Source: Betaproteobacteria bacterium (GTDB lineage: Bacteria > Pseudomonadota > Gammaproteobacteria > Burkholderiales > Burkholderiaceae_D). From it: DNA of 64,000 nucleotides. The notes below the pieces were generated by a model, which did not search any database, was not told where the DNA came from, and was given only the letters and a program-made list of their open reading frames with translations. Shown in pieces: positions 334-45,468 of this stretch (its first letter is position 1; each line of letters begins with the position of its first letter). Where the stretch lies: contig JABDED010000001.1 in NCBI GenBank assembly GCA_013287275.1, forward strand, positions 1 through 64,000, in the 5' to 3' direction. A program made the position numbers and the translations under genes.

Positions 334-1175
334 GGGAGAGTGTTCCTAATAGTGCTCAAAATGATGTAGCCGCTATTATCCGTTGTTTAAGCCGTTCGGC
401 AAAGGCCGTTGATCGGCCCCATGGTCTTGACTGCACTGCGACAGAGGTTGCCAGTCTTCGATGGTGGAATGTGCTTTTGGGCGGGCTGCGGTGGTTCTGT
501 ACTGGTCTTTGGCGTGTGTGTAATCACGATATGCTCATTTGTCGCCATGGTTGCCGGGGCTCCCCGGTATGCAGCAGATCATGTGATTCAATTTCTGGGC
601 TTGGCGGATCAGGGAGAGTGCCAGTTGTTGCTATATGGCTGCCGAGATTAGCGCTACTTCGTTACTATTTGTAAGTATTGCAACCGAATAATCGGTATAT
701 TCATCCTCGCTGTAAGGTATGTGCCCTCCCTTCATGGCTCTCCCTCATTCCCGATTACACCGCTTCCCTGCTCTCGATGGCCGCGAATCTGTCCACCTGA
801 TCAGGTACATTTCGGCGTCTCAGTGAGCTCGTCCGCGGACAAATTTTTCCATGACATCGACGCGGCATGCAAGATTGACATGCATGATTTCACAAGATAA
901 GTTACTTGCAATATTCCCTTATGGGAATTTTTGTGCAGACCTCACGAGTCTTGTCAAAGCTGCAGGCAGGCTCTGTATAAGCGTATTCCTGATTGCTATC
1001 GAAGCCGCCATAAAAGCGGCCTTAAATTGGCAAGTAAATATGACGGGCATCACATTTTCAATCGCCAATATCTCCTCAGGAAGCCAGGGCTGGGAAGAGT
1101 TTTGACTGCTTGCCGAAACGACCGGCTTTTTTGACTGGGATGTACTGTAACGAACCGAGAGCAAAGGGATGTGCC
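334..1175. other. Intergenic region without a recognisable gene
   Basis: About 840 bases between the broken OsmC-YcaO gene and the di-haem lipoprotein gene. Short open frames occur on both strands (for example 409-651 and 851-1105), but none has a convincing ribosome binding site or a protein I recognise. A small GCCGC/GCGGC inverted repeat sits at 1004-1020 without a T-run. The region presumably carries the promoter of the downstream gene, but I cannot assign boxes with confidence. Confidence 0.5.
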
Positions 1176-21944: not shown

Positions 21945-23456
21945 TTAGCCGGCTTTGGCGATCGTTGCCGCAACAGCCGGGCTTTTTGCAGTGGCGGCCG
22001 GCGATGCGCTCCAGCCGCCGCCTATCGCGCGTATCAGGTTGACCGCGGATTTAGCCCTGGCGCCATCCAGTTGGGCCGCGGCACGCTGTTGTTGCAACAC
22101 CGTGCGGTCGGCGTCAATTACGTTCAGGTAACTGACTGAGCCTTCGCGATACTGGATGTGGGACAGCTTGGCCGCCCTTTCCGCCGCCTGCACCGCATTG
22201 TCCTGGGCCTGGGTCTGATCGCCGAGTATGCGCAGATCGGCCAGGTTGTCTTCCACTTCCTTGAAGGCATTCAGTACGGTCTGGCGGTAGTTGGCGACGT
22301 CTTCTTCATACACGGCACGCGCCTTGTCTACACCTGCCTGCCGGCGGCCACCGTCAAACAGGGGCAGAGACAACAAAGGGCCGAGCAGGAAGGTGCGGCT
22401 GCTCCAGTTGAATAACTCTCCCAGGCCGGAGGATTCGTAGCCGAAGGCGCCGGTAATATCCAGGCGCGGAAAAAATGCCGAGCGCGCCACGCCTATACGG
22501 GCATTGGCGGCGGCCATGCCGCGTTCTGCCGCGGCAATGTCGGGACGGCGCTCCAGCAGCGATGAAGGCAGGCCTGCCGGAATATTGACCGCAATCCGCG
22601 ATAATGGACGCGGCTGGAAGTTAAAATCGGCCGGGGTCTTGCCCAGCAAAATCGCCAACGCATGCTCTGCCACCGCGCGGGTACGGGCAACTCCAAGCGA
22701 TTCCGATTGCGCCGATGCCAGCTCGGACTTGGCGCGCGCCAGATCCAGCTCGCTGATATCACCTTCATCAAAGCGCTTCTGTACCAGCTTCAGGGTTTGC
22801 GAGCGCAGTTCAACAGTGCCGGAATACAGCGCCTGCTCGGCATCCAGTTCCCGCAGCAGGAAATAGGCTTGCGCCACGTCGGCCTGCAGGGCCAGTTGCA
22901 CCGACTGGAACAGCGCTTCATTTTGTTGCGTATCCGCGTTGGCGGCATCTACCGTGGACGATACGCGGCCGAACAGGTCCAGCTCATAAGATGCGCCGAG
23001 TTGGGCGCTAAAGGTATTGCCGGTCGGTACATTGCTATTGTCCGGCAAGCCTTGCGACACCGGCGATGGCCGCCCCCGGTTGGCGCCGAGGCTGGCATTA
23101 ACTTGCGGGAACAGGCCCGAGCGCGCATCCTGCCGCAGGGCGCGCGATTGTTTCAGGCGTGCCGCTGCCGCTTTCAGGTTCTGGTTGGCGGCCAGCGCCT
23201 GGGTTTCCAGATCGTTCAGGCTGTCATCGGCGAAGATCTTCCACCATTCGCCGCGGGCGAACTGTTCCGAAGGCTGCGCCTCTTTCCAGTTGGCGCCGGT
23301 TTGCGATGCGCTTGTTTCGTTTGCAGCTTCCTTGTAGGCGGCCGGAGTGGCGACTTCGGCACGTTGGTAAGTCGGCGCCACCGAGCAGCCTGCCAGAATC
23401 AGCAACACCAGCAGCAGTGACGACGCTGACTTCAGGGGTTTGATTGTATTCATCAT
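21945..23456 (-). CDS. RND efflux outer-membrane lipoprotein, NodT/OprM family
   Basis: The ATG at 23456 (GGGAG seven bases upstream) begins MMNTIKPLKSASSLLLVLLILAGCSVAP with lipobox LAGC, so I reject the longer frame from 23600; 503 residues. Typical blocks: PTYQRAEV, WWKIFADDSLNDLETQALAANQNLKAAAARLKQSRA, GASYELDLFGRVSSTVDAA, LLGKTPADF, RPDIAAAERGMAAANARIGVARSAFFPRLDITGAFG, and SYLNVIDADRTVLQQQ. It forms the trimeric channel through the outer membrane for the adjacent pump. The start overlaps nothing but lies 26 bases inside the window after the RND gene stop region. OprN-like by operon position. Confidence 0.9.
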   Translation of the reverse strand: MMNTIKPLKSASSLLLVLLILAGCSVAPTYQRAEVATPAAYKEAANETSASQTGANWKEAQPSEQFARGEWWKIFADDSLNDLETQALAANQNLKAAAARLKQSRALRQDARSGLFPQVNASLGANRGRPSPVSQGLPDNSNVPTGNTFSAQLGASYELDLFGRVSSTVDAANADTQQNEALFQSVQLALQADVAQAYFLLRELDAEQALYSGTVELRSQTLKLVQKRFDEGDISELDLARAKSELASAQSESLGVARTRAVAEHALAILLGKTPADFNFQPRPLSRIAVNIPAGLPSSLLERRPDIAAAERGMAAANARIGVARSAFFPRLDITGAFGYESSGLGELFNWSSRTFLLGPLLSLPLFDGGRRQAGVDKARAVYEEDVANYRQTVLNAFKEVEDNLADLRILGDQTQAQDNAVQAAERAAKLSHIQYREGSVSYLNVIDADRTVLQQQRAAAQLDGARAKSAVNLIRAIGGGWSASPAATAKSPAVAATIAKAG

Positions 23457-23481
23457 TCTTTGCTCCCAAACTTTCTCAAGA

Positions 23482-26400
23482 TTACAGCGGCGCTGCCGGT
23501 TGTGCAGGAATATGTGCTGTGCCATGTGCAACTGCCGGAGCTTCATGTACAACTGCAGAGTGCAGTTTGCGGCTGCCCTTGATGGAGCGCAGCAAGACAT
23601 AGAACACCGGTGTCAGGAACAGGCCGAACAAGGTCACTCCCAGCATGCCGAAGAACACCGCGACACCCATTGCATGGCGCATTTCAGAGCCGGCACCGCT
23701 GGATATCACCAGGGGCACGACACCCATGATGAAGGCGATGGAGGTCATCAGGATAGGACGCAGGCGCAGGCGGCTGGCGTCAATCGCCGCTTGCAAAGGC
23801 GTGCTGCCCTGCAGTTCCAGTTCCCGCGCAAACTCCACGATCAGGATCGCATTCTTCGCAGACAAGCCCACCAGCACCATCAGCCCGATTTGCGTGAAGA
23901 TATTGTTGTCGCCACCGGTCAGCCAGACACCGGTCAATGCAGCCAGCAAGCTCATGGGCACGATCAGGATTACCGCCAGCGGCAGGGTCAGGCTTTCATA
24001 CTGTGCCGCCAGCACCAGGAACACCAGCAACACACTGATAGGGAAAACCCACATGCCGGCATTGCCCGCCAGGATTTTCTGGTAAGTCAGGTCGGTCCAT
24101 TCAAACTTGATGCCGGAAGGCAGCGTCTTGGCAGCGATACGTTCTGCCGCAGCCTGGGCCTGGTTGGATGAATAACCTGGAGCCGGGCCGCCGTTGATGT
24201 CGGCAGCGGTATAGCCGTTATAACGGACTACCATTTCAGGGCCGAAGCTAGGCGTGACCTTGACCAATGAAGACAGAGGCACCATCTCGCCCGATGCATT
24301 ACGGGTTTTCAGTTGCAGGATGTCTTCTGGTTTTGCGCGATAGGCGGCGTCAGCCTGCGCACGCACCTGATACACGCGGCCGAAACGGTTGAAGTCATTT
24401 ACATATAGAGAGCCCAGGTAGATCTGCATCGTATCAAACACGTCGGTCACAGGCACGCCCAGCTGCTTCGCTTTTACACGGTCCAGGTCGACATCCAGTT
24501 GCGGCACGTTGATCTGGTAGCTGGAAAACATCGGACCCAACTCAGGCGCGGTCTTGGCGGCGGCGATAAAAGCCTGTGCCGCGGCGTCCAGTTCGGCATA
24601 ACCGAGGGCGCCCTTGTCTTCGATCTGCATCTTGAAGCCCCCTACCGTTCCCAGGCCCGTCACCGGCGGCGGCGGGAACACGGCGATGAAAGCGTCCTTG
24701 ATGCCGGAATATTTCTGGCTTAACTTGCCGGCGATGGCGTCCGCAGCCAGTTCCTTGCTGCGGCGCTCTTCGAACGGCTTCAGCGTCACAAACACGATAC
24801 CGGCGCTGGAACTATTGGTAAAACCATTGATGGACAAGCCTGGGAAGGCAACCGCACTTTCCACGCCTGGTTCTTTCAGCGCGATGTCGGACATGTCGCG
24901 GATGACTTTTTCGGTACGGTCCAGCGTTGCGCCATTCGGCAATTGCGTGAAGCTGATCAGGTATTGCTTGTCCTGCCCGGGCACAAAGCCGCCGGGTACG
25001 AGGTAGGAAACACCTATCGCCAGCATCAGCAGCACCACGTACACACCCATCATCGACGCTTTGCGCGAGATAACGCCGGTCACGCCCTTGGAATAATTTT
25101 CCGAACCGCGATTGAACATGCGGTTAAAGGCGGCAAAGAATTTGCCGAACAGGCGGTTCATCACCTTGGTCAGCCAGTCCGGTTTTTCGTCGTGGCCTTT
25201 CAGCAGGATGGCGGCCAGCGCCGGCGACAGGGTCAGCGAATTGAACGCGGAGATCACGGTCGAGATCGCAATGGTCATCGCAAACTGTTTGTAGAACTGG
25301 CCGGTCAGGCCTGTCATGAAGGCCAGAGGCACGAATACCGCGACCAGGGTCAATGCAATCGCCACGATCGGGCCGCTGACTTCACGCATCGCACGGTAAG
25401 TCGCTTCTTTCGGCGTCAGGCCGGCGGCAATATTCCTTTCGACGTTTTCCACTACCACGATCGCATCATCGACCACAATACCGATCGCCAGCACCATGCC
25501 GAATAGCGACAAGGCATTGATCGAGTAGCCAAAGCCCAGCATCAGCGAGAAAGTGCCGACGATGGACACCGGCACCGCCAGCAAGGGGATCAGCGAAGCG
25601 CGCCAGGTCTGCAGGAACACGATCACCACCAGCACGACCAGTGCAATCGCTTCCAGCAGGGTTTCCACTACCGCATGGATACTGGAACGGACAAATTGCG
25701 TAGGGTCATACACGATCTTGTATTGCACGGAGCTGGGGAAATCGGCAGACAATTCCTTCATCGCTGCGCGCACCTGGTCGGACACTTCCAACGCATTGGC
25801 GCCGGGTGCCTGGAAAATAGGAATAGCGACCGCTGGCTTATTGTCCAGCAGCGAGCGCAAGCCGTATTCAGAGGCGGCCAGTTCTATGCGGGCGACATCC
25901 GCCAGCCGGGTTACCGCACCGTCGGCAGAGGTTTTCAGGATGATGTCGGCAAATTCAGCTTCAGTCTTCAGGCGGCCTTGCGCGTTCACGTTGAATTGCA
26001 AAAGCGTATCGGGCAAGCTAGGGGATGCGCCGATCACGCCGGCGGCAACCTGCACATTCTGTTCGCGGATCGCGTTGACAACGTCAGACGCGGTCAGGCC
26101 GCGCTGGGCCACTTTTTGCGGATCCAGCCAGACGCGCATCGCATAATTGCCGGAACCGAACAGGCCGACTTCGCCCACGCCCTTGATGCGGGCCAGACGG
26201 TCTTTTACGTTCAACACTGCGTAATTGCGCAGGTAGGTCATGTCGTAACGGTTGTCCGGCGAGATCAGATGCACCACCATGGTCAGGGCCGGCGAGCTCT
26301 TGATCGTGGTCACGCCCAGCCTTTGCACATCGGGCGGCAGGCGCGGCAAGGCTTGCGATACCCGGTTTTGCACCAGTTGCTGCGCCTTGTCGGGATCGAC

Positions 26401-26697
26401 GCCCAGCTTGAAGTTGACGGTCACCGTCAGGTTGCCGTCGCTATTGGCCTGGGATTGCATGTATAGCATGTTTTCGACGCCGTTGATGGATTCCTCCAGC
26501 GGTGACGCCACCGTTTCTGCAATTACCTTGGGGTTGGCGCCAGGATATTGCGCGCGCACCACCACGGATGGCGGAACAACCTCGGGATATTCCGAGATAG
26601 GCAGCTGGAACACGGATAAGGCGCCCGCCAGCAGGATGATTACCGACAACACCCCGGCAAAGATGGGGCGGTCGATAAAGAACTTGGAAATATTCAT
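23482..26697 (-). CDS. RND multidrug efflux transporter, HAE1 family, MexF-like
   Basis: 1071 residues, full length for the family. N-terminus MNISKFFIDRPIFAGVLSV and ISEYPEVVPPSVVVRAQYPGANPK closely follow MexF-type pumps. Twelve transmembrane segments are expected; TM4 carries the proton-relay aspartates in GIVVDDAIVVVENVERN. The porter-domain motif GLTGQFYKQFAMTIAIS and C-terminal GLSAKNAILIVEFAREL are present. It exports hydrophobic antibiotics or metabolites using proton motive force. Upstream gap to the adaptor gene is 38 bases; downstream gap to the outer-membrane gene is 25 bases. Likely controlled by the LysR protein encoded divergently at the operon head. Confidence 0.93.
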   Translation of the reverse strand: MNISKFFIDRPIFAGVLSVIILLAGALSVFQLPISEYPEVVPPSVVVRAQYPGANPKVIAETVASPLEESINGVENMLYMQSQANSDGNLTVTVNFKLGVDPDKAQQLVQNRVSQALPRLPPDVQRLGVTTIKSSPALTMVVHLISPDNRYDMTYLRNYAVLNVKDRLARIKGVGEVGLFGSGNYAMRVWLDPQKVAQRGLTASDVVNAIREQNVQVAAGVIGASPSLPDTLLQFNVNAQGRLKTEAEFADIILKTSADGAVTRLADVARIELAASEYGLRSLLDNKPAVAIPIFQAPGANALEVSDQVRAAMKELSADFPSSVQYKIVYDPTQFVRSSIHAVVETLLEAIALVVLVVIVFLQTWRASLIPLLAVPVSIVGTFSLMLGFGYSINALSLFGMVLAIGIVVDDAIVVVENVERNIAAGLTPKEATYRAMREVSGPIVAIALTLVAVFVPLAFMTGLTGQFYKQFAMTIAISTVISAFNSLTLSPALAAILLKGHDEKPDWLTKVMNRLFGKFFAAFNRMFNRGSENYSKGVTGVISRKASMMGVYVVLLMLAIGVSYLVPGGFVPGQDKQYLISFTQLPNGATLDRTEKVIRDMSDIALKEPGVESAVAFPGLSINGFTNSSSAGIVFVTLKPFEERRSKELAADAIAGKLSQKYSGIKDAFIAVFPPPPVTGLGTVGGFKMQIEDKGALGYAELDAAAQAFIAAAKTAPELGPMFSSYQINVPQLDVDLDRVKAKQLGVPVTDVFDTMQIYLGSLYVNDFNRFGRVYQVRAQADAAYRAKPEDILQLKTRNASGEMVPLSSLVKVTPSFGPEMVVRYNGYTAADINGGPAPGYSSNQAQAAAERIAAKTLPSGIKFEWTDLTYQKILAGNAGMWVFPISVLLVFLVLAAQYESLTLPLAVILIVPMSLLAALTGVWLTGGDNNIFTQIGLMVLVGLSAKNAILIVEFARELELQGSTPLQAAIDASRLRLRPILMTSIAFIMGVVPLVISSGAGSEMRHAMGVAVFFGMLGVTLFGLFLTPVFYVLLRSIKGSRKLHSAVVHEAPAVAHGTAHIPAQPAAPL

Positions 26698-26735
26698 GAT
26701 AGATTCTCGTTGTCTATGTGCGTTGCCAGTCGGTC

Positions 26736-27959
26736 TTAAGACTTGTCGGCTGCAACGGTCTTGCTGGTTGTCGGGCCGGCACTGGGGGCAACTGCCACCT
26801 TGCTCATCGGGACCATGTTGGGAGTGATCGTGTCGCCGGGACGGGTGCGTTGCAGGCCATTCACCACGATGCGTTCGCCGGCCTTCAGGCCTCCTTCCAC
26901 AATCAGCAGATCGTCCTGTTTGGCGCCCAGGCGTACTTCACGGTAGGCAGTGTGATTTTCCTTGTCCACGGCCAATACGAAGCGCTTGCTTTGATCTGTG
27001 CCTATCGCTTTTTCATCGATCAGCAGGGCTTCATGCGGAGCACCGCCGCCCAGGCGGATGCGGGCATACAAGCCGGGCAGCAACAAGCCGTCCTGGTTGT
27101 CGAATACGGCGCGCACACGTATCGTTCCCGATGAAGTGTCGATGCGGTTGTCTATCGAGCTGACCTTGCCTTGGCGGGAATAACCGTCTTCGTTGGCCAG
27201 GCCGAGGAAGACCGGTACCTGCGCATTTTTTGCCTGGGCTGGATTTACGTATTTCAGGAAGCTTTGCTCATCCACGTCGAACGATGCATACACTTGCGAC
27301 ACCGATACCAGTGTGCTGAGCGGGGGCGAGCTGGTCCCGACAGCGATCACATTGCCTACCGTGACTTCTGCGCGGGAGATGCGGCCGGCAACCGGCGCGG
27401 TGATCTGCGTATATTCCAGGTTCAGCCTGGCAGCCTTCAGGGCGGCCTGGGCTGCGAGCACATTCGCCGCGGCTTCGCGCGATGCGTTTTGCTTTTCTTC
27501 ATAATCGCGGCGGGCGATTGCATTGTCGGCCAGAAGGCGTTCGCCGCGGGCGACATCGGATGCGGTATAGGCGGCGCGGGCTTCTGCCGCCGCCAGTTGC
27601 GCCTGCACCCTGGCAACCTCGGCTGCATAAGGGCGCGGGTCGATGGTAAACAGCAGGTCACCCTTCTTGACCAGGCTGCCGTCCTTGAAGTGAACCGCGG
27701 TCAGGGTGCCGCCGACCAAGGGGCGGATTTCCACCCGGTCGACCGCTTCCAGTTTGCCGGAATAGCTTTGCCAGTCGACGATTTTGCGGCTGACGACTTC
27801 GGCCACGTCAACGGTAGTTGCAGGCGGAGCGCCCTTGGCTTCCGGAGTGCCGGCGTGGACGCGGATTGCTCCGGCTATGCCTGCCCCCGCGATCAAGAGA
27901 ACGATGACGGCGCTGACGGCGATGGATAGGCGGCTGCGTGTAATTGGAGAATTAGACAT
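26736..27959 (-). CDS. RND efflux membrane-fusion (adaptor) protein, MexE-like
   Basis: I use the ATG at 27959 with GAGGAAC upstream (MSNSPITRSRLSIAVSAVIVLLIAG, an N-terminal membrane anchor), giving 407 residues; the frame itself starts at 27986. The lipoyl/barrel-sandwich motifs IRPLVGGTLTAVHFKDGSLVKKGDLLFTIDPRPY and the hairpin coiled coil (LAAAEARAAYTASDVARGERLLADNAIARRDYEEKQ) are typical, followed by GRISRAEVTVGNVIAVG and RTRPGDTITPNMVP. It links the inner-membrane pump to the outer-membrane channel in the periplasm. A perfect 16-bp tandem duplication lies directly upstream in the leader. Confidence 0.92.
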   Translation of the reverse strand: MSNSPITRSRLSIAVSAVIVLLIAGAGIAGAIRVHAGTPEAKGAPPATTVDVAEVVSRKIVDWQSYSGKLEAVDRVEIRPLVGGTLTAVHFKDGSLVKKGDLLFTIDPRPYAAEVARVQAQLAAAEARAAYTASDVARGERLLADNAIARRDYEEKQNASREAAANVLAAQAALKAARLNLEYTQITAPVAGRISRAEVTVGNVIAVGTSSPPLSTLVSVSQVYASFDVDEQSFLKYVNPAQAKNAQVPVFLGLANEDGYSRQGKVSSIDNRIDTSSGTIRVRAVFDNQDGLLLPGLYARIRLGGGAPHEALLIDEKAIGTDQSKRFVLAVDKENHTAYREVRLGAKQDDLLIVEGGLKAGERIVVNGLQRTRPGDTITPNMVPMSKVAVAPSAGPTTSKTVAADKS

Positions 27960-27975
27960 GATGTTCCTCATTGAT

Positions 27976-28007
27976 GGTGGGTTCAAAATCGGGTGGGTTC
28001 AAAATCG
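27976..28007. repeat. Perfect 16-bp tandem duplication in the efflux operon leader
   Basis: GGTGGGTTCAAAATCG occurs twice back to back (27976-27991 and 27992-28007), 17 bases upstream of the adaptor start codon. Such a duplication can change copy number by slippage and alter the distance of upstream signals to the ribosome binding site. Confidence 0.85.
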
Positions 28008-30299: not shown

Positions 30300-30323
30300 T
30301 CACTGGCTCAAATGTTTCCAGCG

Positions 30324-30361
30324 GGGGATAAGCGAGAGATTCGCTTATCCCCTTTATTTTT
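30324..30361 (+). terminator. Strong rho-independent terminator after the LysR gene
   Basis: GGGGATAAGCGA and TCGCTTATCCCC form a 12-bp stem with a short loop (30324-30352) followed by TTTATTTTTG. It separates the LysR gene from the peptide synthetase gene. Confidence 0.85.
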
Positions 30362-30460
30362 GTCCTTTATTGTTTCCAGATACTACAAAATAACAAAGAA
30401 TTGCTGCCTATCCCTGGCGCCGGGTGCTACCATTAGTGATTTTTCGCAGCCCCCAGTTTT

Positions 30461-33400
30461 ATGAGCTACACGTGGTCCACAGAAGATCAGAGCAACGCCC
30501 ATAACGGCACCGGGAATGACGCCGGGAATGACACTATCAAGGCTGGCATCAACCCCGCTATCCACCCGAATATCCTGTACGGGCCATATCGGCCCGATCT
30601 CATCAAAAATGAAGTCCTGGCCGACCTGCTTGAAGCAAGCGCTGTTCGGGCGCCGGACGGCATCGCCCTCATCTTTGGTGAAAATCAGCTCAGCTATCAA
30701 CAGCTTAACCAGCGCGCCGACCAGGTTGCTTCCCATCTGATCGAAGCCGGCGTACGGCCCGGGCATATCCTGGGCTTGTGGCTGCCGCGCGGGATAGACT
30801 TGCTGGTCATGCAGGCCGGCATCGCCAAAGCCGGCGCTGCCTGGCTGCCGTTCGATGCGGATACGCCGGTGGACCGCGTCGCCGTTTGCCTGGAAGATGC
30901 GCAGGCGTATGGCATCCTGAGTTGTGAGCTGTTTACTCCGCAAACGGTAATACTGGCGGCCAGGGTATGGAATGCGGAAGACCTGGTCTCGCCCCCTTCA
31001 TCTGGCCAGCCTGTACGACGGCGCCAGGATGTGTCGCCGGACGATCCGGCCTATGTGATCTATACCTCAGGCTCCACCGGCAAGCCCAAAGGCATCGCCA
31101 TCACGCAAGGCAGCATCTGCCATTTCCTGCGCAGCGAAAATGCGGTGCTCGGGGTGCGGGCCTCAGATCGGGTCTATCAGGGATTTTCGGTCGCTTTTGA
31201 CATGTCTTTCGAGGAAATCTGGATCAGTTACCTGGTCGGCGCGACCCTATGGATAGCGCCGAAAGAGGTGGCGGTGGACCCGGATGCCCTGCCGCGCGCA
31301 CTGGCGGAACAAAAGATCAGCGTACTGCACGCTGTGCCTACATTGCTGGCGCTATTTAACCAGGATGTTCCCAGCTTGCGCATCATCAATCTCGGCGGCG
31401 AAATGTGCCCCGAGGCGCTGGTTGCGCGCTGGGCGCGTGCCAATCGGCAGATATTCAATACCTACGGCCCGACCGAAGCGACGGTATCGGCCAGCCTGGC
31501 GGAATTGCAGGCGAATCAACCGGTTACCATAGGCACGCCTTTGCCGAACTACGGTTTGCTGGTGATCGATGCCGCGGCGGAAAACGGACTGCGCTTGCTG
31601 CCGCGCGGCGAGATTGGCGAACTGTGCATCATAGGCCCCGGCATCGCGGCAGGCTACCTGGGGCGCCCGGATCTGACGGCAGAGAAATTCCTGGCCAATC
31701 CCTGGAGCGGACAAGACACCGACCGGCGGCTATACCGCACCGGCGACCTGGCGCGCATCGATGAACAGGGGCAGGTTTTATGCCTGGGGCGCGCCGATGA
31801 CCAGGTGAAGATACGCGGATTCCGGGTTGAGCTGGGCGAGATAGAGGCGGTGCTGGCCAAACAGCCGGGTGTCGGCACCGTCGCAGTGATACTGCGCCAG
31901 GAACAAGGCATAGACCAGCTGATCGCTTTTATCGTGCCTGACGCCGGGGCCGGCATTTCCGCTGCCAGGCTGCGCGCAACGCTGGCCGCATCCCTGCCGC
32001 CTTATATGGTGCCGGCCCGTTACGAGAGCCTGGAAGAAATGCCACGCCTGACTTCCGGCAAGATAGACCGCAAAGTATTAAAGGACAGGCCACTCGCCGT
32101 GTCTGCGGAGTCTGTGGAATCGGATGTGCCGGAGACGCCGGCGGAGCAGGTTCTGTTTGCTGCACTGGCCAAGCTGTTTCCGGGGCAAGCCATACTCAGG
32201 AGTGCCGATTTTTTTGCCGACCTTGGCGGGCACTCGCTGTTTGCTGCGCGCCTGGTGTCTTCATTGAGGACGGATGCGCGTTTTGCCTACTTCAAGATCG
32301 GTGATATCTATGCAAGCCGCAGTGTAGGCCGCATTGCCGAAGTGCTGATGGAGACGCAAGTCGAGTCTGCCGATATCAGTGTGGACTGGACGCCGCCGCC
32401 CGGCGTGAAGCGCTGGGTCTGCGGCGCTGCCCAGGCTTTCGTGATTCCGTGGCTGGTAGCGATGCGCATGGTGCAGTGGCTGGCGCCGTTCTTCGCCTAC
32501 CACTTCTTTACCGGCGACCCGGAAGATTCCATTACCAGGGCCTCGCTGTTGTCTGTCGGCGTGTTTTTGCTGCTGACGATACTGGAATTCGGTATCGCCA
32601 TTGTATGCAAATGGCTGATAGTCGGCCGTTTGAAACCGGGGCGTTATCCGCTGTGGGGGCTGACCTATTTCCGCTGGTGGTTCGTGGACAGGCTGGTGGA
32701 AGCGGCGCCTACCTATATGCTGAGCGGCTCGTCGCTGTATGCATGGTGGTTGCGGGCGCTGGGGGCAAGGATAGGCAATGACGTGATCGTCGGCTCCATG
32801 ACGCTGCGCGCCGCCGATTTGCTGACCATAGGCGACGGCGTCAGCGTAGGCAATGCCAGCAATTTTGAAAATGCGCGCGTCGAACGCGGCGAATTGATCT
32901 TGGGCAGGATCACTTTAGGGCGCGAAGCCTATGTCGGCTCTTATTCAGTGCTGGAAGGCGATGTCTCGATAGGCGATGGCGGCCATCTGGAGGGGCAATC
33001 CGCATTGAGCGAAGGCCAGACCCTGCCAGCCGGGCGAATCTGGCGCGGCTCGCCGGCGCGCGATGTCGGTCCTTATGATGCCGCTGCTTATCCGCCACGT
33101 CCGGCGGTCAGCCATTTGCGTTCTGCCTGTGAGGCCGTTTTCTTTGTTTTTGGCGCCTTCCTGATCACCGCCCTGTTTTTCATGCCGGTATTCCCCAGCT
33201 TTATATTGATAGACTGGTTTGACAATATTGACCGCTTCCCCTGGATGGCGAGCAGCAATATCTCATTCCAGCTGCTCAAATATTTCATCCTGGCCTTCCC
33301 TGCCACCGCGGTGCTGATCGTTTGCACCGCATTGCTGTCGGCCGGCATACGCTGGAGCATCTTGCCCAAGCTGAAGGCCGGCAGCTATAAGGTGCACAGC

Positions 33401-34546
33401 AATACCTATTGCGGCAAGTGGCTGGTCAACCAGATCCAGGAATCCAGCCTGAACGTGCTGCACGGCGTGTATGCGACCGTGTACGCGCCTTTCTGGTACC
33501 GGCTGCTGGGCGCCAAAGTCGGCCGCGGCGCCGAAATATCGACTGCATTGGGCGTAGTGCCGGACATGCTGACCCTGGGCGACGATACCTTTATCGCTGA
33601 CGCAGTATTGCTCGGCGACGAACAGATAGACGGCGGCTGGATGACGATGCAGCCGACCGTAATTTCGCGGCGCAGCTTTATCGGCAACGGCGCCTACATA
33701 CCGGACGGCACTACCGTCCCGGAAAATGTGTTGATAGGCGTGCATTCCAGCGCACCGGAGAATTCCCAGATGCGTGACGGCGATACCTGGCTCGGCTCGC
33801 CGCCCATCCATCTGCCGGCGCGTGAAGAAGTCACCGGCTTCCCGGAAAACCTGACCTTCCACCCCTCTCCATTCCGCCGCCTGGGGCGTGGACTGATCGA
33901 GGCCTACCGTATTGTCGCGCCGCATGCGATGGTGATCGCGGTTGGCTACACCATCGTGCTCAACTTGATGCCGATTGCCGGCGAAGACCGCTGGGCTGAA
34001 GTGATCTATTACCTGGTGGTTGCCGGCTTGCTGTACGGCGTCGGCAGCTTTTGCTTCGTGATGGTGTTGAAATGGCTGTTCATCGGCCGTTACAAGAAGA
34101 GCAGCATGCCGATGTGGACGCCCTTCGTCTGGTTGTCCGAAGGCATCACCAATTTGTACGAGGGGATTGCGGTGCCGAATTTCATGCGCTATCTGCGCGG
34201 AACGCCATGGCTGCCGTTGGCCTTCAATTTACTGGGCTCTCGCATCGGGCGCGGCGTGTATATGGATACTACCGACATCACCGAATTTGATTGCGTCAGT
34301 ATCGGCGCCTACAGCGAGATCAATGCGCTGGCTTGCCCGCAAACCCATTTGTTTGAAGACCGGGTCATGAAAATCGACCATGTCAGTATCGGCAGCAAAG
34401 TGTATATGGGAGCCCGCAGCTCCGTGCTGTATAGCGCGGTGGTCGCCGACAATTCCCGCCTGGGGCCGTTGACGCTGGTGATGAAGGGTGAATACATACC
34501 GGCCGGATCGAGCTGGCGGGGCTGTCCTGCAGCGGCAACGAAATAG
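30461..34546 (+). CDS. Pls/PosA-type single-module non-ribosomal peptide synthetase
   Basis: 1361 residues. Adenylation domain about 55-530 with A3 YTSGSTGKPKG, A4/A5 region AFDMSFEEIW, NTYGPTEAT, A7 YRTGDLAR, A8 IRGFRVELGEIE and A10 Lys (TSGKIDRK). A carrier domain follows with the phosphopantetheine site LGGHSL at Ser592. No HHxxxDG condensation or thioesterase motif is visible. Instead the last 750 residues contain three repeating units, each a pair of membrane helices followed by a left-handed beta-helix (hexapeptide) segment (for example ARIGNDVIVGS, AKVGRGAEIST, SRIGRGVYMDT), the layout of epsilon-poly-lysine synthetase (Pls) and the PosA family. By hand alignment the specificity residues read about D-M-E-H-I-L-T-V-S-K; the Glu at the third position would suit a basic side chain. 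No good ribosome binding site at 30461. Product: a homo-poly(amino acid) or short isopeptide, inferred. Confidence 0.85.
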   Translation: MSYTWSTEDQSNAHNGTGNDAGNDTIKAGINPAIHPNILYGPYRPDLIKNEVLADLLEASAVRAPDGIALIFGENQLSYQQLNQRADQVASHLIEAGVRPGHILGLWLPRGIDLLVMQAGIAKAGAAWLPFDADTPVDRVAVCLEDAQAYGILSCELFTPQTVILAARVWNAEDLVSPPSSGQPVRRRQDVSPDDPAYVIYTSGSTGKPKGIAITQGSICHFLRSENAVLGVRASDRVYQGFSVAFDMSFEEIWISYLVGATLWIAPKEVAVDPDALPRALAEQKISVLHAVPTLLALFNQDVPSLRIINLGGEMCPEALVARWARANRQIFNTYGPTEATVSASLAELQANQPVTIGTPLPNYGLLVIDAAAENGLRLLPRGEIGELCIIGPGIAAGYLGRPDLTAEKFLANPWSGQDTDRRLYRTGDLARIDEQGQVLCLGRADDQVKIRGFRVELGEIEAVLAKQPGVGTVAVILRQEQGIDQLIAFIVPDAGAGISAARLRATLAASLPPYMVPARYESLEEMPRLTSGKIDRKVLKDRPLAVSAESVESDVPETPAEQVLFAALAKLFPGQAILRSADFFADLGGHSLFAARLVSSLRTDARFAYFKIGDIYASRSVGRIAEVLMETQVESADISVDWTPPPGVKRWVCGAAQAFVIPWLVAMRMVQWLAPFFAYHFFTGDPEDSITRASLLSVGVFLLLTILEFGIAIVCKWLIVGRLKPGRYPLWGLTYFRWWFVDRLVEAAPTYMLSGSSLYAWWLRALGARIGNDVIVGSMTLRAADLLTIGDGVSVGNASNFENARVERGELILGRITLGREAYVGSYSVLEGDVSIGDGGHLEGQSALSEGQTLPAGRIWRGSPARDVGPYDAAAYPPRPAVSHLRSACEAVFFVFGAFLITALFFMPVFPSFILIDWFDNIDRFPWMASSNISFQLLKYFILAFPATAVLIVCTALLSAGIRWSILPKLKAGSYKVHSNTYCGKWLVNQIQESSLNVLHGVYATVYAPFWYRLLGAKVGRGAEISTALGVVPDMLTLGDDTFIADAVLLGDEQIDGGWMTMQPTVISRRSFIGNGAYIPDGTTVPENVLIGVHSSAPENSQMRDGDTWLGSPPIHLPAREEVTGFPENLTFHPSPFRRLGRGLIEAYRIVAPHAMVIAVGYTIVLNLMPIAGEDRWAEVIYYLVVAGLLYGVGSFCFVMVLKWLFIGRYKKSSMPMWTPFVWLSEGITNLYEGIAVPNFMRYLRGTPWLPLAFNLLGSRIGRGVYMDTTDITEFDCVSIGAYSEINALACPQTHLFEDRVMKIDHVSIGSKVYMGARSSVLYSAVVADNSRLGPLTLVMKGEYIPAGSSWRGCPAAATK

Positions 34547-34552
34547 ACCACG

Positions 34553-35167
34553 ATGACGGACAACGGCCTATTCGCTGTCCATGCATGGCCAGCAGCGCAG
34601 CAAGCTGCAGTCGCCAGCCTGAAAGAGCAAGGCCTGGCCGTTATCTCTGTTTCCAGCGGCGTCTTTGAGGCACGCGATATAGCCCGGCAAAAAATACGGC
34701 AGGCGGTGACGGAGATGCTGGCTGTTGCCTATGCTTGTTCGCCGGAGCGGCTGCAGTTGCATTCCGTGCCCGGCCAGCCGCTGCGTGTCGATATTCCAGG
34801 TCATCGCATAGGATTATCGCTGAGCCATGAGCCGGGCCTGTCGCTGGCAGCCATCCGTGACGGCGGGGCCGTGGGCGTAGACCTGATGAGGATTGATGCG
34901 GCGCTTGATTGGACACCGGTTGCCCTGCTTTATCTGGGGGCAGAAGCCTGTACTGAAATCGGCCGCCAACCGCCAGGCCAGCAGGCCGGCCATTTTGCAC
35001 AGGCGTGGACGGCTCTCGAAGCCAGGTTGAAATGCCGTGGTGCTGCAATCACTGAATGGAACCGGGAGCTAGAGCATCTGCTGGCGCAAGCGCCGCTGAG
35101 GATGTTGGGACTGCCGCCGGGTTTTGCCGGATCCGTCGCGCTTGGCCCCTCTTCTGCGATGGAATAA
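34553..35167 (+). CDS. 4'-Phosphopantetheinyl transferase
   Basis: 204 residues, starting six bases after the synthetase stop and clearly coupled to it. Motifs of the Sfp/AcpS superfamily: RIGLSLSHEP (substrate loop), AVGVDLMRID (magnesium-binding Asp), and FAQAWTALEARLKCRG, the WxxxEAxxK catalytic signature. It should load the phosphopantetheine arm onto Ser592 of the synthetase carrier domain. A dedicated transferase beside a single-module synthetase supports a self-contained pathway. Confidence 0.85.
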   Translation: MTDNGLFAVHAWPAAQQAAVASLKEQGLAVISVSSGVFEARDIARQKIRQAVTEMLAVAYACSPERLQLHSVPGQPLRVDIPGHRIGLSLSHEPGLSLAAIRDGGAVGVDLMRIDAALDWTPVALLYLGAEACTEIGRQPPGQQAGHFAQAWTALEARLKCRGAAITEWNRELEHLLAQAPLRMLGLPPGFAGSVALGPSSAME

Positions 35168-35228
35168 CAAAAGGACGATAATGGAAGCCGGATATCTTTT
35201 GATCCGGCATTTCCTCCTGGAGAAGATG

Positions 35229-35747
35229 ATGAAGCGCTATTTTCATGTCATGGCTACGGGCCTGTTTGGCGCCGCTCTGGCAGTGAGCCTGTCTTCATGC
35301 GCCAGTTGGGGCGTCGGGACGATCCATCCGGGAGAACCCGAGGATCAGGTCAGGGCCGAACTCGGTACTCCTACCAATGTGTACCAGGATGGCGACCAGC
35401 ACTTGCTGGAGTATTCGCGCGGACGCATGACCCAGGCTACCCATATGGCCCGTATAGGCGCTGACGGCAAGTTGGTTTCTTACGAGCAGGTATTGACTGT
35501 GCAAAAATTTGCCGAGATCAAAGTCGGCGAGGCCGATAAGGCGGCCGTATTGCGCATCGTCGGCCAGCCGCATGAAAAAGATTATTATCCGCGTACTGAG
35601 CTGGAAGCCTGGTCCTATGGCTTTAAGGAAAGCGGCGCCTGGGATTCTTTTATGTCGGTCTATTTTGACAAGGGCGGTATCGTGCGCAAACTGGAGAACG
35701 GCCCCGATCCCTTGCGGGATCCCAGCTTTGGGCGCAGGCATCGCTAG
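35229..35747 (+). CDS. Lipoprotein with BamE/SmpA-like repeats
   Basis: The start is ambiguous: 35181 has a good AAGGA ribosome site and gives 15 extra residues; 35226 and 35229 sit behind GGAG. I use 35229 because it gives a standard lipoprotein signal (MKRYFHVMATGLFGAALAVSLSSC, lipid Cys24). Mature protein has two tandem segments of similar pattern (GTIHPGEPEDQVRAELGTP and EIKVGEADKAAVLRIVGQP), the SmpA/OmlA-type repeat usually seen in outer-membrane-associated lipoproteins. It follows the PPTase gene by 61 bases on the same strand and may be co-transcribed, perhaps coincidentally. Confidence 0.75.
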   Translation: MKRYFHVMATGLFGAALAVSLSSCASWGVGTIHPGEPEDQVRAELGTPTNVYQDGDQHLLEYSRGRMTQATHMARIGADGKLVSYEQVLTVQKFAEIKVGEADKAAVLRIVGQPHEKDYYPRTELEAWSYGFKESGAWDSFMSVYFDKGGIVRKLENGPDPLRDPSFGRRHR

Positions 35748-40113: not shown

Positions 40114-40821
40114 ATGCAAGCACAAGCCATTACCTCAGTCGAGGCTATTCATCCGTCGCTATGGCGAGCTTCACAGCTCGCGCGCAGCTCCACGGTCTGC
40201 GTGGGCAGCGGTCATGCGTCGCTGGACCGGGAGTTGCCGGGCGGCGGCTGGCCTGCCGGCGTGCTGATAGAGTTACTGATACAGCAAAACGGCAGCGCCG
40301 AATTGAGCCTGCTGCGCCTTGCTCTGAACAAGCTGGCTGGGCGCCGTATCGCGCTGGTGCAGCCGCCGCACCAGCCGCAAAGCCTGGCCTTGTCCGGTTT
40401 CGGCCTGTCCCCCGCACAATTCATGTGGATACGCAGCAAGAAGCCCGGCGATGCACTGTGGGCTAGCGAACAAATCCTGCGCACCGGCAGTTGCGGCGCA
40501 TTATTACTATGGCAAAACCACATCCGCAACGAATCTTTGCGCCGCCTGCACCTGGCGGCGCAAAGCAACGACATGCTGTTTTTCATGGTAAGGCCCTTGG
40601 CCTGCGCCGACCAGCCGTCGCCGGCTGCACTGCGCCTGAGCCTGCAGCCTGTTCATCAAGGGCTGCAAATCAGCTTTACCAAACGGCGCGGGGCGTCACG
40701 CGATGTTCCGCTATTTCTTTCCCTGTCCCCTCTTCTGCGGTTTTCCGATCATGCGCTTATGGATAGCCTTATACCTGCCTTTACTCCAGCTGGAAGTATT
40801 TCGCCCGCACTGGCTGAGTGA
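40114..40821 (+). CDS. imuA: ImuA, RecA-like translesion synthesis accessory protein
   Basis: 235 residues, first gene of the SOS mutagenesis cassette. The sequence matches the ImuA (SulA/RecA-like) family: LWRASQLARSSTVCVGSGHASLDRELPGGGWPAGVLIELLI, which corresponds to the start of a degraded RecA core without a proper Walker A; RRIALVQPPHQPQSLALSGFG; and LLLWQNHIRNESLRRLHLAAQ. It helps organise the ImuB-DnaE2 mutasome. No ribosome binding site is evident. The 3' end overlaps imuB by about 70 bases. Confidence 0.85.
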   Translation: MQAQAITSVEAIHPSLWRASQLARSSTVCVGSGHASLDRELPGGGWPAGVLIELLIQQNGSAELSLLRLALNKLAGRRIALVQPPHQPQSLALSGFGLSPAQFMWIRSKKPGDALWASEQILRTGSCGALLLWQNHIRNESLRRLHLAAQSNDMLFFMVRPLACADQPSPAALRLSLQPVHQGLQISFTKRRGASRDVPLFLSLSPLLRFSDHALMDSLIPAFTPAGSISPALAE

Positions 40822-42232
40822 CCAGGGCATGGTCGTGCTGGAGCAGAATCGCGTCTCGGCGATGTCTGCGCTTGCGCGCGAGGCCGGTGTGGAAACGGGT
40901 ATGCGGCGCGGCGGCGTGCAAATGCTGTTGCCGGAAGCAGTATTCCATACGCGTGAGCCGGTACGCGAACAAGACGCGCTACAGCAGGCGGCCATGGCCT
41001 TGCTGCAGTATTCGCCGCTGGTCACTGAGGGCGAAGACGCCAGCATGCTGATCGACGTCGGCGCCAGCCTGCGCCTGTTCGGCGGCGTGCGTGCCATCTG
41101 CCGGCGTATCCGCGACACGATGCAGGCGCTGGGTGTAAGCGTGCAAATGGGCTGCGCCGTTACGGCCAGGGGCGCCTGGCTGCTGGCGCATAATGCGGCA
41201 CTGGGCAAGCGCCGGGGCCGCAGGCGCAGCCTGTCGATGAAGAGCCTGGTTCCCATCCTGGACCGCTTGCCGCTGGCCCTTTTACCGGCGGCCTCACCCT
41301 GGCTGGGCTGGCTGCATGGCGTGGCCTGCCGGCGCCTGGGCGAATTGCGCGGCCTGCCGCGTCCGGGCTTGCAGCGCCGTTGCGGCAAGGAATTGCTTCA
41401 GTCGCTGGATTGCGCGTATGGCGAAGGAAGTGAATTATTCAACTGGATCGTGGCGCCGCCGGGTTTCCGTGCCAGGGTGGAACTGCCGGACCGCATGGAC
41501 CATGCGGAGCACATCCTGCTATTTGCCCGCAGCCTGCTGGTGCAACTGGCGGGCTGGCTGACGGCCAGGCAACTGGCGGTCACCCGGATCACCCTGCATC
41601 TGGAACATGAACGGGGGCGCCAGGCGATCCCGCCTACTGAATTGCAGATTGCACTGGCGGAAGCGACCTGGCGCGAAGAGCATTTGCTGCGCCTGCTGAA
41701 AGAACGGCTGGCGCATCTGGATCTGGCTGCGCCCGTCATCGCCGTCAGCCTGGATGCCAGCCAGGTCGAGGCAATGGAAGCCCCCAGCGATTCGCTGTTC
41801 CCCGAACCGGGCGGGTCGCCGGAAGACCATCACCGTCTGGTGGAACTGTTGGTAGCCAGGCTGGGTGCAGACAATGTATTGCAGCCGGCGCCGCAGGCCG
41901 ACCACAGGCCCGAAGTCGCGAATGGCTGGGCCTCCGTACTGCAAAAAATCAAACCGGCCGCCTTGCCGGACAAGCTGGTGCGGCCGGCATGGCTGTTTGC
42001 CAGGCCGGTTGCGCTGACCTTGCGCGACCATCGTCCTTATTACAACTCGCCGCTGAAGCTGGTGTCGCCCGCTGAAAGGATAGAGGCCGGCTGGTGGAAC
42101 GGGCAGTTGGTCACCCGCGACTATTACATCGCCGAGGGCGAAGACCATGTGCATTACTGGATCTATAAAGAGCGCATAGGCAGGCTGGAAGATGCGCACA
42201 GTATCTGGTATGCGCAGGGAGTGTTCGGATGA
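40751..42232 (+). CDS. imuB: ImuB, catalytically inactive Y-family polymerase homologue
   Basis: The frame begins at 40703, but MRLWIALYLPLLQLEVFRPHW at 40751 is the usual ImuB N-terminus (493 residues). It resembles DinB/UmuC but the catalytic carboxylates of the palm (DxD and SxDE) are replaced, as typical for ImuB. Palm/fingers motifs include AREAGVETGMRRGGVQ. The C-terminus should carry a beta-clamp binding motif and DnaE2/ImuA contacts. Overlaps imuA and shares ATGA with dnaE2 downstream. Confidence 0.88.
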   Translation: MRLWIALYLPLLQLEVFRPHWLSDQGMVVLEQNRVSAMSALAREAGVETGMRRGGVQMLLPEAVFHTREPVREQDALQQAAMALLQYSPLVTEGEDASMLIDVGASLRLFGGVRAICRRIRDTMQALGVSVQMGCAVTARGAWLLAHNAALGKRRGRRRSLSMKSLVPILDRLPLALLPAASPWLGWLHGVACRRLGELRGLPRPGLQRRCGKELLQSLDCAYGEGSELFNWIVAPPGFRARVELPDRMDHAEHILLFARSLLVQLAGWLTARQLAVTRITLHLEHERGRQAIPPTELQIALAEATWREEHLLRLLKERLAHLDLAAPVIAVSLDASQVEAMEAPSDSLFPEPGGSPEDHHRLVELLVARLGADNVLQPAPQADHRPEVANGWASVLQKIKPAALPDKLVRPAWLFARPVALTLRDHRPYYNSPLKLVSPAERIEAGWWNGQLVTRDYYIAEGEDHVHYWIYKERIGRLEDAHSIWYAQGVFG

Positions 42233-45200
42233 CGACATCGACCATCCCTTTTCCATCTCCCGTCCTGCCGGATTATGCCGAGCTGTTTTGCCTGTCGAAT
42301 TTTACTTTCCTGCAAGGCGCATCGCATGCAGAAGAGCTGGTGGACCGTGCCGTGGAGCTGGGTTATTCCGCATTGGCGGTCACCGATGAGTGTTCGCTGG
42401 CCGGCGTGGTGCGCGCCCATGTGGCGGCAAAAAAACATATCGCAGCAGACAAGCCGGCAGACGAACAGGCAGGTGCAGACCCCAAATTCAAATTACTGAT
42501 CGGCAGCTATTTCAGGCTGGCCAATCCCGATGCCGCCGACAGCCCTGCACTGACGCTGATTGCGCTTGCACAAGATCGCGAGGGCTATGGCAATCTGTCC
42601 GAACTGATCACGCTGGCGCGTTCACGTGAGCCCAAAGGCAGCTACTCCTTGATGCCCGACGACCTGGCGGCGCCGCCGGCCGGTTATGAGCACCTGCGCG
42701 GCTTGCCCAATTGCTTGCTGATCCTGGTGCCGGAATATGCGGTGCCGCTGGACACCCTGGTCGCCCAAGCGGCATGGACAGCAGCGACATTTGGGGAAAA
42801 ACGCGCCTGGATAGGCCTGAGCTTGCTGTACCAGACCATGGACGGCATGCACAGGGACAGGATACAGGCAGTCGCAGCGCACTATCATTTGCCGGTGGTC
42901 GCCATCGGCCATGTCTGCATGCACAAGCGTTCGCGCAAGCCTCTGCAGGATACACTGAGCGCGATCAGGCTGGGCAAGCCGATTGCCGAATGCGGCTATG
43001 AACTGGCGCCGAATGCAGAACAGCATCTGCGTTCGCGGGTGCGGCTGGCCAATATCTATCCGGCACAGGCATTGGCGGAAACCATAAAAATCGCAGGGAA
43101 ATGCGATTTCTCGCTGGATGAACTGCGCTACGAGTATCCGGATGAGCTGATACCGCCGGGATATACGCCGGCCAGGTATCTGCGGCAGGAGGTGGAGAAA
43201 GGCGTGCTATGGCGGTTTCCCGAGGGGCCAGGCGCCAAGATTCTTGCTCGCATAGAGCAGGAACTGACGCTGATCAATGATCTTGCGTATGAAGCTTTCT
43301 TCCTGACGGTCTATGACCTGATCAAATTTGCACGTTCAAAGAAGATACTCTGCCAGGGCCGCGGTTCGGCGGCCAACTCGGTCGTTTGCTATTGCCTTGG
43401 GGTGACTGAGGTGGACCCAAACAGCAGCACCTTGCTGTTTGCCCGCTTCCTGTCCAAGGAGCGTGGCGAGCCGCCGGATATCGACGTCGATTTTGAGCAT
43501 CAGCGGCGGGATGAGGTCATTGCCTATATCTATGAAAAATACGGTCGCGACCGGGCTGCGCTGGCGGCCGCCGTGCATACCTACCGGCCGCGCGGCGCCT
43601 TGCGCGAAGTCGGCAAGGCGCTGGGCGTCGACCTGGCGATAGTCGATGCGGTGGCCAAATCGCAGCGCTGGTTCGACAGTAAAAACGATTTGCTGGAACG
43701 CTTTGCCGAAAGCGGCCTGGACCCCAATTCTCCGGTCGCCCAGCTATGGGCCGGCCTGGTGACGCAACTGGTGCGTTTTCCTCGCCATCTGTCGCAGCAT
43801 AGCGGCGGCTTCGTGATTTCCCGGCACAAGTTGTCGCGTCTGGTACCGATAGAAAATGCAGCGATGGAGAATCGCTATGTGATTGAATGGGACAAAGACG
43901 ATCTGGAGTCACTGAAATTGCTGAAGGTCGATGTACTGGCGCTGGGCATGCTGTCGGCACTGAGGCGTGCATTGGACATGATGTCCCGGTTTCCGGGCAA
44001 ACCCGACAAACTGGAGGAAATACCGCGCGAAGACTCTGTGACTTACGACATGATCTGCAAGGCCGACACGATAGGCGTGTTCCAGATTGAATCCCGGGCG
44101 CAGATGAGCATGCTGCCACGCTTGCGCCCCAGGGTATTCTATGACTTGGTGATACAGGTGGCTATCGTCAGGCCAGGGCCTATCCAGGGCGGCATGGTGC
44201 ATCCGTATTTGAGGCGCCGGCAGGGAAAAGAGCGGGTCGAAATACATGAAAATCCTGCGATGGTGGAAGCGCTGGAGCGTACCCTGGGCATACCGATCTT
44301 CCAGGAGCAGGTGATGCAGATTGCAATGCTGGCCGCGGATTTTACGCCTGGAGAAGCGGATGAGTTGCGCCGGGCAATGGCCGCCTGGAAAAAGAAAGGC
44401 GGCCTGGAGCACTATAAAGACCGCATCGTGAATGCAATGGAGAGCAATGGATATGAAAAAGCATTTGCACTGGCCATTTTTGAGCAGATGAAAGGTTTTG
44501 GCGATTACGGTTTCCCCGAAAGCCATTCGGCCAGCTTTGCCAAGCTGGCCTATATCAGCAGCTGGATCAAATGCCATGAACCGGCGATCTTCTTGTGCTC
44601 TTTATTGAACTCCCAGCCCATGGGATTTTATTCGCCTTCACAACTGGTGCAGGATGCAAAACGGCATCATGTAAAGGTACTGCCTATTGATGTGATGTGC
44701 AGCAACTGGGATTCCTCGCTGGAGCTTGATGATACGGTCAATCCTTTTACCGGCACCGTGCAGCCGGCGGTAAGACTGGGCATGTCGTTGCTGCGCGGCA
44801 TGTCTTCCGATTCTGCCGAACGTATCGAAAAAACCAGGACGATCCGGGCATTTATCGACGTTACCGACCTGGCGCGCAGGGCGCAATTGAACCGGCAGGA
44901 ACTGGAGGCGCTGGCTGCCGGCAATGCGCTGCTGTCTTTGGCCGGTCACCGGCGCGAGGCCTTGTGGAATGCAGTCGGTGCGGTGCCGGACAAGGATTTA
45001 TTGCGGCCCACCACCATCTCGGAACAAATGCCGCGCCTGAATGCGCCATCGGAAGCGCAGGAAATCCTCAGCGATTACCGCAGCACCGGCCTGACATTGC
45101 AGCGCCATCCGGTAGCCCTGCTGCGCCCCGCCCTGCTGGAAAAACGCTTCCTGCCGGCCGAGATGCTGAACACTTTCCAGAACGGCCAATTCGCCCGCGG

Positions 45201-45468
45201 CTGCGGTATCGTCACGGTGCGCCAGCGTCCGGGTACGGCCAAGGGAGTGATCTTCATCACGATAGAAGACGAAACCGGGCCGGTGAACGTGATCATCTGG
45301 CCGGCACTACTGGAAAAACAGCGGCGCGAGGTATTGAATGCGCGCTTGCTTGGAGTATATGGCATCTGGCAATGCGAGGCCGAAGTCCGGCACCTGGTTG
45401 CCAAGCGCCTGGTGGATATGTCGCACCTGCTGGGGAATATGGTGACGAGCAGCCGTGATTTCTGCTAA
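42229..45468 (+). CDS. dnaE2: DnaE2 error-prone DNA polymerase III alpha
   Basis: 1079 residues. N-terminal PHP domain ([49 protein letters not shown]), polymerase core with the catalytic acidic pair [25 protein letters not shown], then [16 protein letters not shown] and [10 protein letters not shown]. C-terminal OB fold ([35 protein letters not shown]). Starts in ATGA overlap with imuB. Together with ImuA and ImuB it performs SOS-induced translesion synthesis and mutagenesis. Confidence 0.95.
   Translation: [1079 protein letters not shown]

Follow-up and report, generated by a model that had tools for sequence, protein, structure and literature searches.

Which polymer is assembled by a Pls/PosA-type synthetase of Undibacterium, and does the phosphopantetheinyl transferase gene found next to it belong to the same system? 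These questions are raised by a 64,000-nt stretch of DNA, hereafter the window, in which a posA-type gene encoding the synthetase P0001 is followed by a gene encoding a 4'-phosphopantetheinyl transferase (PPTase), P0002. The host of the window is an Undibacterium metagenome-assembled genome (MAG) near Undibacterium terreum, of 3.2 Mb and 56% complete, and the best relative of P0001 is a U. terreum protein, 88% identical in the best segment. The locus had been described, in an original prediction made from the letters alone, as a single adenylation-carrier (A-T) module fused to three membrane and hexapeptide-repeat units, with a PPTase of its own; it was compared to epsilon-poly-lysine synthetases, and its product was left open. 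Domain make-up, modelled fold and specificity code come from comparisons made here; for activity, product and biological role the guide is PosA of Acinetobacter baumannii (PDB 8G95-8G98; PMC10522769), an enzyme producing delta-poly-L-ornithine of 7-12 units in vitro.

P0001 is an intact synthetase of the Pls/PosA family

The two open reading frames (ORFs) lie where the original prediction had placed them, and the family and architecture assigned to the first are confirmed. P0001 matches the TIGR02353 profile (NRPS_term_dom, described as 'Pls/PosA family non-ribosomal peptide synthetase') at 850.5 bits over residues 657-1357, the cut-off being 423.1. It has one AMP-binding domain only (PF00501, residues 57-400). 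At E <= 1e-3 the Pfam matches of P0001 are AMP-binding, AMP-binding_C and Hexapep, with no condensation or thioesterase domain. The carrier domain is called from a GGHSL motif, from models of non-ribosomal peptide synthetases (NRPS) spanning it and from the alignment to PosA, where the motif is shared. The expected phosphopantetheine site, Ser592, is part of GGHSL or GGHSF in 92/92 aligned sequences, window included, so that the loss of this serine in related strains, envisaged in the original prediction, was not observed.

The C-terminal domain consists of three tandem units, each made of a transmembrane helix pair and a left-handed beta-helix. Six hydrophobic stretches, arranged in three pairs, are visible in the hydropathy profile, and an AlphaFold model of the C-terminal region (pLDDT 90.0, pTM 0.90) agrees with these and with the three hexapeptide units. 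Profile alignment indicates that the units are homologous to each other (99.6-100% probability), with left-handed beta-helix folds. In a fold search the structural rows cover only unit 1 of the model well, and the absence of other matches is uninformative. The A-T-C-terminal architecture is that of PosA, which is 1332 amino acids long in A. baumannii versus 1361 in the window. Family and domain order are shared also with Pls of Streptomyces albulus (PDB 7WEW) and other actinobacterial Pls, which likewise feature three tandem units and six membrane helices grouped in three pairs (PMC10522769, PMC9205021). Hexapeptide acetyltransferases of the maltose/galactoside type differ, because in P0001 three units and membrane helices are fused in one chain, and because they use acetyl-CoA, whereas P0001 would use a carrier-bound aminoacyl thioester.

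The posA gene is a near-core gene of Undibacterium. The TIGR02353 family was found above cut-off in 31 of 60 genomes drawn around the window, that is the host itself and 30/35 others of the genus, versus 0/24 genomes from other families of the order. Six of seven further Undibacterium genomes are above cut-off, and the seventh has the domain split over two frames. This makes 37/43 genomes of the genus, 38 when the split copy is counted. Relatives of posA were found in Collimonas, Janthinobacterium, Duganella and Massilia as well. In this split copy (L160, G063:C1:2789851-2791949) the posA C-terminal domain runs over two overlapping frames, by decay or sequencing error. A PosA-type gene 69% identical to that of the window is found in a record of Candidatus Eremiobacterota (L055), which may denote either transfer or a misplaced contig.

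The specificity code is that of an ornithine-activating enzyme

Searches of PDB sequences with the whole P0001 bring linear gramicidin synthetase chains to the top when their two domains are summed. The PosA A-core is on a par with them (8G95, 543.4 bits, residues 36-446), and the Pls A domain (7WEW) scores 258.5 bits. When the A-core alone is used, PosA ranks first, with 546.4 bits versus 400.1 for the next protein. The A-core and the crystallised PosA A domain are identical at 246/403 aligned residues (61%). Over the full length, P0001 is 54.9% identical to A. baumannii PosA (1325 aligned residues), and 33.4% identical to a Pls-type protein of Kitasatospora, whose code is DAESIGTVVK.

The ten-residue code of P0001, DMEHNGTVSK, is the same as that of PosA at 10/10 positions. 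It is formed by D247, M248, E251, H290, N310, G312, T334, V342, S343 and K534. The first nine map to PosA D217, M218, E221, H260, N280, G282, T304, V312 and S313; G282 was assigned here as sixth position by motif spacing, the others being named in PMC10522769. The tenth, Lys534, is the same residue in full-length A. baumannii PosA. The equivalent pocket residues of PosA bind ornithine: activity is abolished in the D217A and E221A mutants and strongly reduced in T304A and S313A (PMC10522769). The code read by hand in the original prediction, DMEHILTVSK, was right at the reported substrate-contact residues and wrong at positions 5 and 6; the Glu proposed to bind a basic side chain is indeed Glu251, aligned to PosA E221. 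A lysine-type code, with Ala at position 2 as reported for Pls (PMC10522769), was also looked for in P0001, which differs from Pls in having Met248 there.

Code extraction was extended to a phylum-wide sample of 398 genomes, the host included. Matches at E <= 1e-60 were obtained in 27, 26 of them above cut-off, and codes were read in the 26 readable proteins outside the host genome (25 above cut-off, L123 below). Seven codes were found: DLEDLGTVVK (8 proteins), DFEALGTVTK (6), DLEDIGSVVK (5), DMEHNGTVSK (4), and DMEHNGTVTK, DVEANGTGSK and DSECYGGVTK (one each). DSECYGGVTK is the code given for a Bdellovibrionales protein in PMC10522769, and its recovery is a check on the method. Since seven different codes were obtained, the extraction discriminates, and places P0001 in the PosA class and not merely in the family. 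Codes of the DLED type occur in 13/26 of these synthetases (L110-L122); a DLED-like pocket is listed as a unique signature in Rhizobia, Methylobacterium and others (PMC10522769). The uniformity of the code among 80 relatives of P0001 is partly by construction, the set having been chosen with peptide patterns covering part of the code (DMSFEEIW); the code is the same also in 11/11 loci taken by the C-terminal profile alone (L085-L095).

The product, left open in the original prediction, can be predicted because the closest characterised relative found is PosA and not Pls; of the comparison to epsilon-poly-lysine synthetases, the family holds. By analogy to PosA, the product of P0001 is probably delta-poly-L-ornithine. 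A non-amino-acid substrate, which had been contemplated as an outcome, is not what the comparison indicates, the A domain being nearest to an ornithine-activating domain of identical code.

The adjacent PPTase is of a distinct type and may be replaced where missing

The presence of a PPTase, part of the original prediction, is borne out by the match of P0002 to the ACPS superfamily (PF01648, 26.6 bits, cut-off 25). P0002 scores 254.9 bits on the profile of its own type, in which the window sequence is itself a row. No match to PDB sequences was found at E <= 10. Asp110, Trp152, Glu156 and Lys160 are conserved in P0002 and shared with Sfp-type PPTases; D110 and E156 are present in 70/70 rows of adjacent PPTases, K160 in 69/70. 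The second acid of the GxDxE motif differs, as it is absent in 70/70 adjacent rows, some from the same genomes as distal Sfp-type enzymes, and replaced by Met (40), Leu (14), Val (8), Ile (4), Ala (3) or Gln (1). Glu is found at this position in 32/32 distal Sfp-type PPTases fetched, and in a 33rd partial one. There are active PPTases, too, in which this acid is missing. Its residues place P0002 in the ACPS superfamily as a predicted PPTase, rather than among the typical Sfp enzymes.

The pairing was monitored in 80 relatives, the best of 450, with flanks of up to 8 kb, shorter for some loci. P0002 found a tblastn match in 60/80, and in 59/80 the PPTase lies directly downstream of posA on the same strand. 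No downstream PPTase was found in the other 21, which comprise 20 lacking any match, among them L076, whose sequence ends 328 bases after posA, and L055, counted as not adjacent as its PPTase is upstream and of another type. On a tree of 85 proteins, from which L076 was left out because of the contig end, the adjacency label changes 9 times, at least 7 by well-supported branches. Adjacency is found also outside Oxalobacteraceae, in Azonexaceae, Zoogloeaceae, Comamonadaceae and Pseudomonas, a spread that suits an old pairing with repeated loss. No PPTase gene beside posA is reported in the open-access literature searched; subscription papers were outside the search.

Among the 43 Undibacterium genomes, with adjacency read by eye from coordinates, 25 have the adjacent PPTase, 13 have posA with no adjacent PPTase and 5 lack posA. 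G025, where posA is 366 bases from a contig end, was excluded from the non-adjacent genomes, 12 of which are testable. Another Sfp-type PPTase is encoded elsewhere in 12/12 of these, versus 7/25 genomes with the adjacent gene (G022 by a partial frame); it is found in 2/5 genomes lacking posA. In the 25 adjacent and the 5 posA-less genomes, all remaining PF01648 matches were fetched and classed: AcpS and the adjacent PPTase are the only ones found in 18/25 adjacent genomes. A non-AcpS PPTase is encoded in 38/38 genomes with posA (one a split copy) versus 2/5 without. Outside the genus, a distal Sfp-type PPTase was found in 12/12 genomes with no adjacent PPTase, one by a weak match (G468, 25.4 bits), versus 8/21 with it, a figure that may be low because the search missed a distal Sfp-type protein of G017 within the genus. 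This test took 17 of the 20 no-match relatives (L013, L035 and L076 left out), of which 5 are Undibacterium, and compared them to 21 of the 59 relatives with a downstream PPTase. Fisher values are 4e-5 in the genus (G025 excluded) and 5e-4 outside, relatedness being ignored; rows are not all independent, since certain genomes appear both as L-loci and as G-loci. Judged by gene content, loss of the adjacent PPTase is not random in Undibacterium. As another Sfp-type PPTase is found wherever the adjacent one is missing in the genomes tested, the pairing looks functional, and AcpS alone seems insufficient for posA.

A candidate condensation site in the third hexapeptide unit

His1296 is the sole invariant histidine of the C-terminal domain (108/108 sequences; L122 and L124, cut or partial, are not in the alignment), and unit 3 is the only unit to have one, which suggests a single condensation site. 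Gln1294 is similarly invariant (108/108). No catalytic histidine in this domain is reported in the open-access literature searched, subscription papers being outside the search, and the sole structural account found of the isopeptide-bond step of the family is a predicted model (PMC10522769).

A plausible route would start with the loading of phosphopantetheine onto Ser592 by P0002. The A domain would adenylate L-ornithine, held by its alpha-amine at Asp247 and by its delta-amine at Glu251, Thr334 and Ser343, and would attach it to the carrier arm as a thioester. Next, a bond would be made by the membrane C-terminal domain between the carrier-bound carboxylate and the delta-amine of an acceptor (ornithine or chain), and a short cationic isopeptide polymer would be released. 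The third hexapeptide unit may hold the one site of condensation, where His1296 would act as general base; the reaction would resemble that of hexapeptide acyltransferases, the phosphopantetheine thioester replacing acyl-CoA.

A wider hypothesis, to which an even chance may be given, is that the single condensation site is family-wide. The domain would be a hexapeptide acyltransferase that was triplicated and anchored in the membrane; unit 3 alone would have kept the catalytic histidine, and the carrier-bound aminoacyl thioester would have replaced the ancestral acyl-CoA. In beta- and some gamma-proteobacteria the enzyme would have co-evolved with a dedicated PPTase subtype (GxDx plus a hydrophobic residue), lost only where another Sfp-type PPTase takes over.

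Alternative explanations

Several points weigh against the reading proposed here. We know of no measured product from any Undibacterium or other beta-proteobacterium, and the prediction of specificity relies on a single characterised enzyme, with 61% identity. PF00550, the carrier profile, scores 19.3 bits, slightly below its cut-off of 20.8. Conservation and fold are what suggest the role of His1296, and in a profile alignment to solved acetyltransferases this residue falls close to their histidine segment but not exactly on it. P0002 is a predicted enzyme, only slightly above the Pfam cut-off for PF01648, with Met112 where distal Sfp-type enzymes have Glu. A role in tuning chain length is reported for Met at code position 2, so that lysine or diaminobutyrate side activity is possible. 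A different cationic homopolymer, either epsilon-poly-L-lysine, poly-diaminobutyrate or a mixture, made by the same mechanism, is suggested also by the common family and by the weak activation of L-Lys by PosA, which M218A raises (PMC10522769, Table 1). It is an improbable product, given the identity of the code to that of PosA, with Met and not Ala or Phe at position 2, and the full-length similarity, higher to PosA than to the Pls-type protein; moreover, no lysine polymer was formed by PosA in the experiments described in PMC10522769.

Likewise, P0002 might be a housekeeping enzyme whose gene merely lies downstream, posA being served by AcpS or any other PPTase. The posA gene of A. baumannii (L163; see also PMC10522769) stands alone, in contrast to that of the window, and pairing is not required for activity as such; the 21 relatives with no downstream PPTase found speak in the same sense, and other Sfp-type enzymes seem to suffice where the neighbour is missing. 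The wide spread of adjacency on the tree, the uneven distribution of other Sfp-type PPTases both within and outside Undibacterium, and the 18 genomes in which AcpS is the only companion found of the adjacent enzyme argue against a housekeeping role, which is unlikely, if somewhat less so than a different polymer. That P0001 is a degenerate or inactive relic might be proposed because the MAG is incomplete. This is very hard to credit, as the frame is full-length, code residues, Ser592 and the conserved C-terminal residues are intact, and the gene is kept in most genomes of the genus. An active synthetase of delta-poly-L-ornithine, served by its own PPTase, is thus preferred.

Organization of the locus

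The features of the locus are listed in Table 1. The posA stop and the PPTase start are separated by 6 nt. A hairpin search gave 9 sites in the region versus 5.2 expected; as one such hairpin lies between the upstream LysR gene and posA, posA and the PPTase gene probably form a separate transcription unit. Two antisense ORFs (30383-30943 and 33263-33925, both on the minus strand) have no Pfam match; they were treated as shadow frames.

Table 1. Features of the posA locus (positions in the window)
Feature	Position	Strand	Basis
Terminator-like hairpin, 14 pairs plus T-rich tail, between the upstream LysR gene and posA	30323-30353	+	pattern match only
posA-type synthetase P0001	30461-34546	+	ORF of 1361 amino acids
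Adenylation domain, residues ~57-534	30629-32062	+	PF00501, PF13193
GGHSL motif of the carrier domain, residues 589-593 (Ser592, expected phosphopantetheine site)	32225-32239	+	alignment
C-terminal polymerisation domain, residues ~648-1361, three tandem units	32402-34543	+	TIGR02353, model, profile alignment, hydropathy
CPQTHLFEDR segment of unit 3 with His1296 (codon 34346-34348), candidate catalytic base	34334-34363	+	
Adjacent PPTase P0002	34553-35167	+	ORF of 204 amino acids

U. terreum (L005) is the only one of the 80 relatives to show synteny for the genes surrounding posA (RND pump, esterase, LysR, GNAT and two-component genes). Matches of lower identity to LysR, GNAT, esterase and sensor/regulator genes occur in some other loci and form no conserved block, although, given the flank length, absence from a neighbourhood is no proof. 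Exporter or resistance genes were rejected as parts of the system because synteny is limited to L005. No dedicated exporter or polymer-degrading peptidase was seen adjoining posA in the window. Pls-type genes in contrast adjoin a peptidase gene in Corynebacterium and Streptomyces (PMC8117764), and in Kitasatospora (L164) an M1 metallopeptidase gene lies 3' of the Pls-type gene. A small predicted BamE-like lipoprotein is encoded directly 3' of the PPTase gene (35226-35747, plus strand); of the 80 relatives, L005, L006 and L009 have it downstream as well. P0001, P0002 and the lipoprotein gave no match in a PADLOC search at E <= 1e-5.

Other genes are found farther from posA. A MexE-like RND efflux operon (21945-27986, minus strand) includes an adaptor, a pump-sized ORF and a NodT-type outer membrane protein. 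What we take to be an SOS mutagenesis cassette of the imuA-imuB-dnaE2 type spans 40114-45468 (plus strand): a polymerase-like protein of impB/mucB type (PF00817) precedes a DNA polymerase III alpha subunit of DnaE type, and imuA (40114-40821) is assigned from position only. In a frame of 1100 amino acids (1110-4412, plus strand), two F5/8 type C (galactose-binding) domains are joined to a di-haem oxidoreductase domain.

Significance

The kind of enzyme encoded by the locus is already known; what deserves to be pursued is the pairing with the PPTase and the hypothesis of a single histidine. In A. baumannii a synthetic 12-mer was antifungal, and the knock-out modestly raised biofilm (PMC10522769). 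A locus of unknown product is turned into a specific and cheaply testable prediction, delta-poly-L-ornithine, reported as antifungal. In heterologous expression, the paired PPTase would be the natural enzyme to activate the synthetase, and a point mutant of the single invariant histidine would probe isopeptide-bond formation in the Pls/PosA family.

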